Shown here one piece after another: positions 54,040 through 60,286 of a DNA stretch of 62,288 nucleotides (position 1 is its first letter; each line of letters starts with the position of its first letter). Both the position numbers and the translations under genes were made by a program. Source of the DNA: Gemmatimonadota bacterium (lineage in GTDB: Bacteria > Gemmatimonadota > Gemmatimonadetes > Longimicrobiales > Gaopeijiaceae); assembly GCA_022822425.1 (NCBI GenBank), contig JAJEBS010000189.1, positions 1-62,288 of the forward strand. The letters are read 5' to 3'. The notes under the pieces are model-generated. The model made no database searches. It was not told where the DNA came from and saw nothing but the letters and a program-made list of their open reading frames with translations.

Positions 54040-57000
54040 TCACCCTGTTTGCCGTTGCGGCGATGCCCGTGGCGTGGTGTCCATCTCGCGCATCCATACG
54101 GCAACAAGCGTGCCCACTGCGATGACCGCCAGCACGCCGCCCAGCCTGGCCCCCGGGTACGGTCCGGTTGCTGCCTGCACGAGGAAGTCGGCGCAGGTCA
54201 GGGTCCCGACGATGCCGGGCATCAACGCCGGCGCCGCCGCACCGAGTCGCGCAAGCCCGAAGAAGGCTGCGCCACCCAGGAGAGCGGTGGGCACCCACGT
54301 GAGCACCGACTCCTCGAGCGGCCCGGGAACGAAGAAGATTCCGGCGGCCAGCATGCAGACCCACAGCGCGATGCGCCAGCGGAGTCCGGCGCCCGATCTC
54401 AGCGCGAGGCCACTCATCAGGAGCAGCCCGGTCGTGGCAAAGAGGAACCCGGTAGTCGCCCCAAGTGGGCCGGCCAGGGTCGGGATGAAGGAGTTGGCCC
54501 CCGTTACGTCGGGCCACGCGGGAAGCCCTCCGGCGACCCACCCCGCGAGCGTCATGAGACCCAGCAGGGCAGCGCCCAGCGCAAGGGCGAGCGAGCGCGA
54601 TGCCGGCACTCCGGCCTGCCCGCCCCGTCCCTCCCGGAGCCATCTGTGCGCGAGCGCGGTCCCCAGACCGACCGCCGCTGCCCCGAAGAGGACCCCGAGA
54701 ACGCCCGCGAAGACGGCAATCCCCGCCTGAAGGCCCCACGGCTGCGCCGGCGAGAAGATCGCCTCGGTGGCCGGCCAGGAGTTCGCCTGTCCGAGGCCCA
54801 GCGCCACCGCCGCGAGCAGCGCGGCCCCGACGAACAACCGCGTATCCAGTCCGCGCTTCGCCCACGTGACCACCGACAGGACGCATGCCCCGGCAAAACC
54901 GAGCACGAGCACCAGTGCGGCGCACAGGTTCACCAGGTTCCGGAGCGCTTCGCCGTCCCCCCGGGCGAGTTCCCACTCCTCGGGCACGTTCACGAAGCGA
55001 GTCACGTCCACGACTTCGTCACCGGCGAGCAACACCGTCAACCGCGCTTCTCCGGGTATCTCCGAGAGGACCGCCCGGTCCTCAAAGGTGAATCGCCAGT
55101 CGGTGCGCTCCGGCCGCGCCGTCTGGACGGCGCCGACTTCGTCGATGGACTCCCGGCCCATTCCGTACCTCGCCTGCACGGCACCGAGCGCGGCCGCTCG
55201 CGCGTCCTCCTCCTCCAGCCGCGCCCCCGGATGCGCCTCGGGGAGGATGTGCCGGAAACGCAGGGGTTGGCCTGCCCCGTCGAGGTGGACGTGCAATTCC
55301 TCCACGCGCTGCTCGGGGTCGGCACTGAAGTCCACGAAACGGACAATCCAGCGGAGTCCGGGCAGATAGGTCCCGAGGAGGTCCTCGTACACATCCGGGC
55401 CGGCTTCGTCGAAGACGTAGCGGTCGTCATCCCCTCCACCGGACACCACCTGGACCAGGGCTGTCCACGACCCCACGGCGTGCCCGCGGCGCTCCAGCGT
55501 GTCCAGGGCGACGGCGACCGCCTCGCTCCTGGGTGCGGTCAACCGCGCCGCACCGCCGCTATCCGTGAATCCTCGGGCACCCCAGGCGAGAGCGCCGATC
55601 GCACCCAGCGCATAAACCAGCTTGCGCCGCGACAGAAAGCCCCGGGCGGCCGAGGGTGCCTCCGAAGTGGGCAACTCGGCACCGGTCTCCGCGCCCGGCT
55701 CCGCGTCCGCGTCCGTTTCCTCCAGGGCGGGCGGTTTCCAGGCGCGGTTGTACGCCCATTCCGGCGCCCTCGCGCGCGCACCGACCTTCAGCCGCGCGCC
55801 TGCGACAATCAGGAGCGGAGCCAGTCCGGCCGCCACCACGACCACCCTGTCCAGGAGAATGCCGGGCGCGGATGACGCGAAGAGTGGAATCGAGAGCAGC
55901 GAGAGGTTGTAGGTGAAGTGGGAGATGATCGTTGGCACGAGGCCGAAGTAGAGGTAGATCACGCCCCAGAGAAGGGCGGGAACCGTGAGCTCCACCAGCC
56001 TGGCGTAGGCGGGCTGCTGAGGGTAGTTGGCGTGACCGGCGGCGAAGACGACGGCCTGCAGCACGACGGCGCCCCAGATCCAGAGGCTCTTTCGCCCGTA
56101 GCGCGCCCCCAGCAGCGCCGCGCACGCGATGGGGATGGCGCGGAACGCGCTCTCCTCCCAGAAGGCGGCGAAGAGCGAAGTCGAGACCGCCACAAGCCAG
56201 GGCTGCGCGGTCGCAAGCAGGTCCGGCTGGACGACTGCCTCGGCGGGAGACCACCAGCCCTCGAGCCGTGACGTGGCCAGGTAGAAGAGCACCACGTAGC
56301 CGAGTTGCGTGCCCAGGAGCAGGTACGCGCCGGCGGTGCGGCCGAGCGCGGGCATGGACGCCGCCACCCGGGGCGACCAGAAGCGCCATTGCTGCAGGTG
56401 GCCGGGAAACGCACGCCGGCCGAGCGACTCCCCCGCGAGGTAGATGAACGCGAGAAGCGGAGCGCCGAGCGCGGCGGTCGCGCCTGCCAGGACCAGTTGC
56501 TGGGCAAGGAAGGTCCGGACCGAGACGGCGGGGTCGTAGCTCATCCAGCTCAGCGGGAGGTTGTTGACGATCCCGAGGCCGAGCAGCACGGCGGTGATGG
56601 CGCCCCAGACGAGCGCCGGACGCCAGACGACCAGACGCTTCCTCATGAGGAAGGCCGTGCCGCCTGCGCCTCCCACAAGCAGGAAGAGGACGACGAAGAC
56701 CGACTGCGATGCGAACGCGATCGCATCGTTCCTCGAGCGCATGTCCCGGTAGCGCTGGGAGAAGCCCTCGGGCACGAAGACGAAGTGCGCAAGCTCGGAG
56801 GCGCGCTCCCCTGCTACCCGGACGCGCAGCCGAAAGCGGCCATCCTCCACCGCGGCGTCGGTCCGCTCGAACACGAACGTGTGATCCACGCGCCCGCCGG
56901 GCTGCGTTTCCTCGGATGATTCGAGGAGCTCGAACGAAGAGAGATCGACCCCCCACTCCGCCGCCGTCTCCTCGGCGACGGCTCGCGCCTGCGACTCGGC

Positions 57001-57429
57001 GAGGTTGCCGCTGCCCGGATCGTCCTCGGAGAGGCGAAGACGGAACCCGTACGGCTCACCCGCCGGCGTAAAGCGAACCTGGCTTTCCTCGACCGCCCCC
57101 TCCTGGAAGCGCCGCACCGTCCACACGTACGGATGATGGATGCCGCGCCCGGCCAGCCCTGCGAACGCGTCCCGTCCTCCCGCTTCCAGTTCGACGTACG
57201 ACTGTACCTCGGGGTCGGTCTGGCCGAAGGTGGCGGCCGTTCGAGCGTCTGCCGGGTCCCACCCGAGCTGCCTCGCCAGGGTGTCCGCCCGGGCAACGGC
57301 GGCCTCGCGGTCCATCGCGAGATCCAGCGTGACGATGGGGAAGGCGGCCGGAAAAAACCGGATTGCGACCGCAACGCCGGCGACGCCGAGGAGGCCGAAG
57401 AGGATCCACGGGCCCGGTCGACGCATCAT
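54040..57429 (-). CDS. giant CPBP-family intramembrane protease with duplicated architecture
   Basis: This 1129-residue protein contains a CPBP (CAAX/ABI) membrane protease: EESAFR (about 425-430), HANYPQQ (about 465) and SHFTYN (about 502) give the Glu-Glu/Arg, His and His/Asn motifs. It is several times the usual length of about 250-300. Each half seems to be a PepSY-like extracytoplasmic region followed by a helix bundle: AHFVFVPEGF precedes helices in the first half, and TRFVNVPEEW precedes helices in the second. The second bundle keeps an EES (PLEESVLTW) but lacks the Arg and His motifs, so it looks inactive. The start at 57429 follows GGGAGG. Neighbours mpl, ldcA and spmAB suggest a cell-envelope role. 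Confidence 0.85.
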   Translation of the reverse strand: MMRRPGPWILFGLLGVAGVAVAIRFFPAAFPIVTLDLAMDREAAVARADTLARQLGWDPADARTAATFGQTDPEVQSYVELEAGGRDAFAGLAGRGIHHPYVWTVRRFQEGAVEESQVRFTPAGEPYGFRLRLSEDDPGSGNLAESQARAVAEETAAEWGVDLSSFELLESSEETQPGGRVDHTFVFERTDAAVEDGRFRLRVRVAGERASELAHFVFVPEGFSQRYRDMRSRNDAIAFASQSVFVVLFLLVGGAGGTAFLMRKRLVVWRPALVWGAITAVLLGLGIVNNLPLSWMSYDPAVSVRTFLAQQLVLAGATAALGAPLLAFIYLAGESLGRRAFPGHLQQWRFWSPRVAASMPALGRTAGAYLLLGTQLGYVVLFYLATSRLEGWWSPAEAVVQPDLLATAQPWLVAVSTSLFAAFWEESAFRAIPIACAALLGARYGRKSLWIWGAVVLQAVVFAAGHANYPQQPAYARLVELTVPALLWGVIYLYFGLVPTIISHFTYNLSLLSIPLFASSAPGILLDRVVVVAAGLAPLLIVAGARLKVGARARAPEWAYNRAWKPPALEETDADAEPGAETGAELPTSEAPSAARGFLSRRKLVYALGAIGALAWGARGFTDSGGAARLTAPRSEAVAVALDTLERRGHAVGSWTALVQVVSGGGDDDRYVFDEAGPDVYEDLLGTYLPGLRWIVRFVDFSADPEQRVEELHVHLDGAGQPLRFRHILPEAHPGARLEEEDARAAALGAVQARYGMGRESIDEVGAVQTARPERTDWRFTFEDRAVLSEIPGEARLTVLLAGDEVVDVTRFVNVPEEWELARGDGEALRNLVNLCAALVLVLGFAGACVLSVVTWAKRGLDTRLFVGAALLAAVALGLGQANSWPATEAIFSPAQPWGLQAGIAVFAGVLGVLFGAAAVGLGTALAHRWLREGRGGQAGVPASRSLALALGAALLGLMTLAGWVAGGLPAWPDVTGANSFIPTLAGPLGATTGFLFATTGLLLMSGLALRSGAGLRWRIALWVCMLAAGIFFVPGPLEESVLTWVPTALLGGAAFFGLARLGAAAPALMPGIVGTLTCADFLVQAATGPYPGARLGGVLAVIAVGTLVAVWMREMDTTPRASPQRQTG

Positions 57430-59188: not shown

Positions 59189-60286
59189 ATGCGCTCCACG
59201 CCCCTGCCGCTCGCCGCCGCCGGCGTGTCGCTGCTGCTCTCCTGTTCCGACGCTCCGACAGGCCCCGAACCCACGGCACCGGTCGACGTCGGCCCCAACT
59301 GCTCGATCAACACCGATCTGGTCTTTGACGGCGGCGTGGGCGTGGACGGCATCCCGGCCCTCACCAATCCACCCCTGGTGGGCATCTTCGACCAGCAGAC
59401 CGGCTTCCTCTGGGAAAGCGACCGCGTGATCAGCTTCGAGCTGGAAGGGCAGGCGTTCGCCGTGCCCCATCGCATCCTGTGGTGGCACGAGATCGTGAAT
59501 CTGACGCTGGGTCAGCGCCGGGTCGCCGTCACCTATTGTCCCCTCACCGGTTCGAGCATCGTGTTCGACCGCGGCGAGGTCGCGGGAGCCGAGTTCGGCG
59601 TTTCCGGGCTGCTCTTCCAGAACAACCTGATCATGTACGACCGCACGGACGGGGAGCGCTCGCTCTGGCCCCAGATGCTGCGCGAGGCCGGCTGCGGGTC
59701 GAAGCTGGGGCAGCCGCTGCCGCTGATCGCCTCCACGGAGGTCACCTGGGACCGCTGGCGCGGGCTCTATCAGGACGGCCTGGTGGTGGTGCGCCCCGAC
59801 GGCGGCCTGAGCACGACCTACGACCGCTATCCCTACGGCGACTACGAGAGCCTCGACAACACCCGGCTCTTCTATCCCCAGCCCGTGACCGACGCGCGCC
59901 GCCCGGTCAAGGAGCGCGTGCTCGGAGTTCTGGACGATGCGGAAGGCGGGAAGGCCTATCCGTTCGGTGAACTCGGGAAGGACGGGTCGCCGGTGACCGT
60001 GGTGAACGACATGGTGGGCGGGAAGCCGGTCCTGGTGGTGTGGGACAACGCCGGGGAGGCGGCGTTCGCGCTCAACCCCGTGGTGGACGGACAGACTCTC
60101 ACCTTCGAGTTCAAGGGAGGCGACATCGTGGACGCCGAGACGGGCTCGAGCTGGCGGGTGGACGGGGTCGCCATCGAGGGGCCCATGGATGGCACCCGTC
60201 TGGAGCCGGTCGAGGGTGCGTACATCGCCTTCTGGTTCGCGTGGAAGGCTTTCCAGCCCAGGACGGAGCTCTGGGAGGCGGGCTGA
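59189..60286 (+). CDS. DUF3179-domain lipoprotein
   Basis: This 365-residue protein carries the DUF3179 domain. A lipoprotein signal ends SLLLSC (Cys19). Conserved stretches are VAVTYCPLTGSSIVFDR, LYQDGLVVV-flanking residues, and the C-terminal AYIAFWFAWKAFQPRTELW; the cysteine and histidines (RILWWHEIVN) are family features. The function of DUF3179 is unknown; it is found in lipoproteins and membrane proteins of soil and marine bacteria. The gene diverges from SpmA (gap 146 bp) and converges with the TauE/SafE gene, with which it is almost in contact. Confidence 0.9.
   Translation: MRSTPLPLAAAGVSLLLSCSDAPTGPEPTAPVDVGPNCSINTDLVFDGGVGVDGIPALTNPPLVGIFDQQTGFLWESDRVISFELEGQAFAVPHRILWWHEIVNLTLGQRRVAVTYCPLTGSSIVFDRGEVAGAEFGVSGLLFQNNLIMYDRTDGERSLWPQMLREAGCGSKLGQPLPLIASTEVTWDRWRGLYQDGLVVVRPDGGLSTTYDRYPYGDYESLDNTRLFYPQPVTDARRPVKERVLGVLDDAEGGKAYPFGELGKDGSPVTVVNDMVGGKPVLVVWDNAGEAAFALNPVVDGQTLTFEFKGGDIVDAETGSSWRVDGVAIEGPMDGTRLEPVEGAYIAFWFAWKAFQPRTELWEAG

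Follow-up and report, generated by a model that had tools for sequence, protein, structure and literature searches.

What could a membrane protease gain from carrying, in the same chain, a second copy of itself that has lost its active site? The question is raised by a gene in a 62,288-nucleotide stretch of Gemmatimonadota DNA (hereafter the window), which belongs to a draft genome of 4.4 Mb. On the minus strand, an uninterrupted open reading frame (57429..54040) runs from an ATG at 57429 to a stop at 54040 and encodes 1129 amino acids; the frame, its translation and its orthologues delimit the whole gene as 54040..57429, stop codon included. The three other PF02517 genes of the host genome, by comparison, have frames of 266-315 amino acids. 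The protein consists of two homologous halves, N (residues 1-570) and C (residues 601-1129), in each of which one transmembrane (TM) helix is followed by a PepSY/YpeB-like ectodomain in tandem form, then by a VPE junction and a bundle of nine helices. The N half begins with a signal-anchor helix, TM helix 1 (residues 5-29, 57343..57417; this and all features below lie on the minus strand), which AlphaFold2 (AF2) models as a helix and which has two Arg at its cytoplasmic N-terminus. It is followed by ectodomain 1 (residues 30-220, 56770..57342), the FVFVPEGF junction (residues 216-223, 56761..56784) and a CPBP/Rce1-like catalytic helix bundle (residues 221-549, 55783..56769). A cytoplasmic, acidic Pro/Ala linker (residues 551-600, 55630..55779), 80% identical within the genus, leads to TM helix 1 of the C half (residues 602-624, 55558..55626, an AF2 helix with RRK just before it), ectodomain 2 (residues 625-816, 54982..55557), the FVNVPEEW junction (residues 812-819, 54973..54996) and a dead, CPBP-derived helix bundle (residues 817-1118, 54076..54981), recognised by its HHalign match to the N bundle, its helix order and its lack of any catalytic motif.

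The sole Pfam match of the protein is to PF02517 (Rce1-like) at residues 409-509 of the N half, with 42.8 bits against a cut-off of 22.4. Even at E up to 1, PF02517 finds this one stretch in the N half and none in the C half, and no PepSY-family entry matches either ectodomain. Three motifs mark the N bundle: EESAFR, an EExxxR motif (E425, E426 and R430; 56140..56157), FAAGH, the His motif (H466; 56032..56046), and HFTYN, an HxxxN/D motif (H504 and N508; 55906..55920). All 43 N halves have E425, E426 and R430, all 42 that cover the remaining positions have H466, H504 and D/N508, and EExxxR, H and HxxxD/N are present in 12/12 single-half relatives. In the AF2 model these motifs lie inside TM helices of an all-helical bundle (EE in 410-444, H504 in 497-512), as they do in CPBP/Rce1 proteases (PF02517; MmRce1, MrtX). 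The layout agrees with that of the myxosortase MrtX, an active bacterial CPBP protease with known substrates (PMC11980579). The myxosortase model NF040914 itself scores 12.1 bits against an NCBIfam cut-off of 100, and the ABC permease/CPBP fusion model NF041647 10.9 against 435. No matches were obtained by phmmer among PDB sequences and PHROGs; in a plasmid collection the sole match, from Paenibacillus, was to the CPBP core. By its sequence, the N half is thus a member of the CPBP family and a predicted glutamic intramembrane protease. It might be argued that neither half is proteolytic in the cell and that the whole protein is a receptor whose N-half motifs bind a ligand, given that the targets of certain CPBP/Abi proteins are histidine kinases and not substrates (PMC5854430). 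This is very improbable in view of the complete catalytic set, which N halves and single halves retain without exception, and of an N bundle that is the most constrained part of the protein (dN/dS 0.11).

The two halves (residues 1-590 against 591-1129) are related by blastp (64 bits, E 4e-15) and by phmmer (E 3e-13). Their Smith-Waterman score of 171 exceeds the maximum of 115 reached in 500 composition-preserving shuffles, and the ectodomains score 126 against a shuffle maximum of 60, with local composition kept in the shuffle controls. The bundles alone, compared as single sequences, score 59 against a shuffle mean of 56, a score that 165/500 shuffles reach, so that the ectodomain repeat is evident in this one protein and a repeat of the bundles is not demonstrable there. 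Comparison of family profiles, built from 40-55 homologues each, is more sensitive to the latter: HHalign aligns the halves end to end (99.9%, E 3e-35), and the bundles alone at 97.5% (E 6e-12), with E 0.014 for a reversed-profile control of the bundles and 0.2-0.9 for column-shuffled ones. The last ~200 residues alone, the catalytic-core segment, are not significant by HHalign, and it is collinearity and predicted structure that suggest the equivalence of this segment in the two halves. The original prediction of two repeated halves is thus sustained across the family, as the halves are significantly similar, and its claim of repeated helix bundles stands at the level of profiles, while not being visible in this sequence alone. 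Taken together, these comparisons indicate that the C half is descended from the same unit as the N half.

A full-length AF2 model, computed from an alignment of 47 sequences, has a pLDDT of 89.6 and a pTM of 0.87, with pLDDT below 50 only in the linker (571-596) and the tail. Its helices correspond one to one and in the same order in the N and C halves: 5-29/602-624, 221-263/817-857, 269-289/863-883, 304-340/898-934, 359-390/945-966, 410-444/983-1011, 447-465/1016-1033, 476-495/1042-1065, 497-512/1069-1088 and 522-549/1094-1118. Helix lengths are similar in the two bundles. Together, these values and the paired helices give a confident predicted placement of the halves relative to one another. 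Modelled alone, the C bundle has a pLDDT of 88.7, and in a VIA comparison MmRce1 (4CAD) ranks top of 997 chains, with an rmsd of 6.0 over 182 residues; its Z of 5.1 is weak, lies within the tool's stated noise range and is tied with unrelated chains, so the match is consistent with a CPBP origin and does not prove it. Foldseek returned nothing at E 0.001 or below for the full model or the C bundle. Might the duplicated ectodomain then carry a second bundle of unrelated fold? The shuffle-level similarity of the single bundles, the non-significant final 200 residues and the tied Z of 5.1 could all be read in that way, but the bundle profile match at E 6e-12 with clean controls, the identical order and similar lengths of the helices, the presence of P983 at the position of P410 in 44/45 C halves and the top rank of Rce1 make this already disfavoured reading extremely improbable, and the unrelated fold that would have refuted the original prediction can be set aside.

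Both predicted extracytoplasmic regions are PepSY-like, as had been proposed. Ectodomain 1 (model residues 36-219) resembles the tandem PepSY region of the YpeB C-terminal domain (5BOI; VIA Z 11.3, 140 aligned residues, rmsd 3.8), whereas the PepSY-type matches of ectodomain 2 are weaker (Z 5.8-6.7), namely 4EXR (6.7) and the fungalysin propeptide 4K90_B (5.8), and are complemented by its conserved residues. PepSY/FTP propeptides, which share this fold, are removed on activation. YpeB, which holds SleB and multimerises (PMC6660665), regulates a spore lytic enzyme; here, in contrast, the PepSY-like domain is part of a predicted membrane protease. The VPE-type junctions beneath the ectodomains, FVFVPEGF and FVNVPEEW, are likewise real features of the family: the Pro (P220 in the N half, P816 in the C half) is invariant in 43/43 N, 12 single and 45/45 C halves. 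The two halves show the same alternation of Lys and Arg between loops, as expected for one shared topology with external ectodomains and an internal linker, and these loop charges suggest that the predicted active site faces the periplasmic leaflet, under the PepSY domain.

Against this shared architecture, the losses of the C half are selective. None of the 45 C halves keeps any catalytic motif residue (EExxxR 0/45, H466 0/45, H504 and N508 0/45), with the proviso that the alignment of C-half residues to individual catalytic columns is uncertain, and no EExxxR motif occurs anywhere in the C bundles. The sequence EES at 1039-1041 was considered as an EExxxR remnant and rejected, as it falls in a predicted periplasmic loop, lacks the Arg and is not conserved. 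Conversely, W694, R697, R775, D777 and P816 of the C-half ectodomain, homologous to N-half residues, are kept in 45/45, and P983 is kept in 44/45. Loss of catalytic residues with retention of other signature residues implies that the catalytic loss is specific, complete and old. The C half descends from the CPBP family and falls outside that family's catalytic definition, and the predicted contrast between a live first and a dead second half extends to the whole family. That the C half might instead have its own new activity (acyl transfer, or lipid or peptide handling), as has been proposed for other diverged CPBP proteins, draws on the reuse of the CPBP fold elsewhere, as in LnsB, which functions in lipoprotein N-acylation (PMC7387801). 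It is improbable here, as there is no invariant polar residue within the C bundle, and alignment A4 contains only the junction P and E together with near-invariant N, W and P.

Full-length orthologues (85-94% identity) are present in 10/10 sister genomes searched, and a C-half profile finds the two-half protein in about 52/394 genomes of the class (E below 1e-100), clearly separated from the single-half proteins, which score about 1e-50. The related records belong to MAGs of Gemmatimonadetes and of the BD2-11 clade, and a scan of genome contigs gave close relatives only. Four contigs labelled 'Gammaproteobacteria bacterium' (L036, L037, L038, L041) carry the gene at 87-90% identity in the same gene order; these public names look wrong. 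Other families of the phylum have single-half PepSY-CPBP proteins (558-590 aa) whose motifs are intact, and G215 and G296 each carry a single-half protein as an additional gene. A further single-half clade, a divergent one (L087, L089 and L099, from G215, G296 and G266), has the motifs EELGYR, HTxL and HLTxD; these genomes belong to the family in which the tandem protein occurs as well. When all halves are placed in one tree, the N halves form one clade (97) and the C halves another (100), with the singles between them in a grouping that lacks support (5). The simplest history, judged from this tree, is a single duplication-fusion of a live unit, a single loss of the second active site and vertical spread with losses. 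The fused frame is intact in about 50 genomes, and the C half was found nowhere as a separate gene: C halves without an N half (L021, L028, L033, L034/L097, L092) sit at contig edges. Apparently separate N and C genes in G051 were rejected as contig ends of a broken assembly.

The most plausible answer to the opening question, and one considered moderately probable, is that the protein is a covalent active/inactive pair, in which a live glutamic intramembrane protease is joined to a pseudoprotease half that serves as its built-in regulatory or sensory partner. The N half would cleave by means of E425/E426, H466, H504 and N508, its active site opening to the periplasmic leaflet beneath the tandem PepSY-like ectodomain. 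The C half, a diverged copy in which all catalytic residues are lost while fold, PepSY-like ectodomain and topology are kept, may lie packed onto the N half in a pseudo-dimer within the one molecule, a packing to which the pTM of the model points. Its ectodomain might then sense a periplasmic ligand or substrate and thereby gate, position or restrain the protease half. Proteolysis by the N half, as well as sensing and gating by the C half, are here put forward as likely roles, and the parts of regulator, adaptor and substrate clamp would all be conceivable for the C half. The C half has been kept for very long since it lost its active site, probably as a sensor of conditions beyond the inner membrane or as a control on the live copy.

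Selection offers a more ambiguous picture. Median dN/dS within the genus is 0.105 for the bundle and 0.145 for the ectodomain of the N half, and 0.31 for the ectodomain and 0.30 for the bundle of the C half, with 0.325 for the linker; as estimated from these codon comparisons, C halves are under purifying selection that is clearly weaker than that on N halves. Against the regulatory reading, C-half dN/dS is no lower than that of the disordered linker (0.30 versus 0.33), such that a weakly constrained scaffold would fit too. A single-half ancestor working as a homodimer could have been replaced by a fused pair in which the C half does no more than supply the second dimer subunit or stabilise the protein, neither sensing nor regulating. 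The high pTM of the model that contains both halves, the near-linker dN/dS and a C bundle that diverges rapidly (median pairwise identity 22%) agree with this explanation, which is nonetheless unlikely, as five C-ectodomain residues kept in 45/45 exceed the needs of a mere membrane scaffold and dead halves fused to kinases suggest signal input.

Only two such kinase fusions, both from the class of the window, were found among 179 genomes of the family concerned. In G279, a 933-aa frame (L098:2764-5562, minus strand), first seen as a weak single-type match, contains a zinc ribbon, a Ser/Thr kinase (PF00069, E 7e-44), a TM helix, a PepSY-like ectodomain and a bundle that has no EExxxR and no catalytic His. 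The second Ser/Thr kinase fusion, in G215 (L102:1501-4296, minus strand; 932 aa, kinase E 2.5e-36), likewise carries a PepSY-like ectodomain and a CPBP-type bundle, and neither bundle has any catalytic motif. With motif-less PepSY-CPBP halves as the membrane part of two receptor-like kinases, dead halves have become a membrane input module at least twice. Profile scores group the kinase-fused halves with the single type, not with the C halves. By analogy they lean towards a sensory or regulatory role for the C half, a hint and not a test. A bolder proposal, possible if rather doubtful, is that of a self-contained regulated intramembrane protease, in which a single chain couples a live, PepSY-gated CPBP protease to a receptor half, itself a pseudoprotease, by which a periplasmic signal is read; dead receptor modules of this kind would also have been put to use on Ser/Thr kinases of the same phylum. 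If this holds, PepSY-pseudoCPBP would define a new class among transmembrane signal-input domains.

CPBP proteins are found widely in bacteria, most of them with no function assigned, and the regulation of those that are active is an open question. Dead CPBP proteins are themselves already known: SpdC (SpdC/LyrA) binds and inhibits WalK (PMC5854430), and LnsB and APH-1 have been discussed as non-catalytic partners (PMC7387801). These three resemble the C half in having a CPBP-derived bundle without catalytic residues and a partner or adaptor role (PMC7387801, PMC5854430), but they are separate proteins, whereas the dead copy in the two-half protein is joined to its live paralogue in one chain and brings an ectodomain of its own. 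Neither a tandem PepSY ectodomain nor a second unit that is dead occurs in any of the CPBP/Rce1 proteases compared. The single-half PepSY-CPBP proteins of Gemmatimonadota (A2) share the TM-PepSY-PepSY-bundle order and all catalytic residues, and are homologous to both halves, yet consist of one unit with no dead partner in the chain. A dead relative of an intramembrane protease also acts as a regulator in iRhom/rhomboid pairs (PMC6451368), which have another fold and separate genes. The open-access literature yielded no account of a CPBP tandem with one active and one dead copy, nor of a CPBP protease bearing PepSY, and reports of tandem or dead CPBP proteins concern only the known separate ones. 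Within one phylum there is a homologous series of single live units, live-dead tandems and kinase-fused dead units, and the fused live and dead copies have been kept together across several families. With both copies in one gene, the role of a dead CPBP protein becomes testable in that gene.

The genomic setting is less informative. Between 51553 and 59279, the minus-strand gene order comprises spmA-like, spmB-like (Gate domain), the two-half gene, an mpl-like Mur ligase and an LD-carboxypeptidase (S66). A spmA-spmB-gene-mpl-ldcA operon was rejected as a functional clue: this neighbourhood is conserved within the genus only, and no pathway can thus be drawn from context. Peptidoglycan-recycling genes do lie downstream of the two-half gene. 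Beside the spmA-like gene, and divergent from it, a DUF3179 protein (E 7.5e-79) is encoded at 59189-60286 on the plus strand, an arrangement shared by those sister genomes in which this flank is present.
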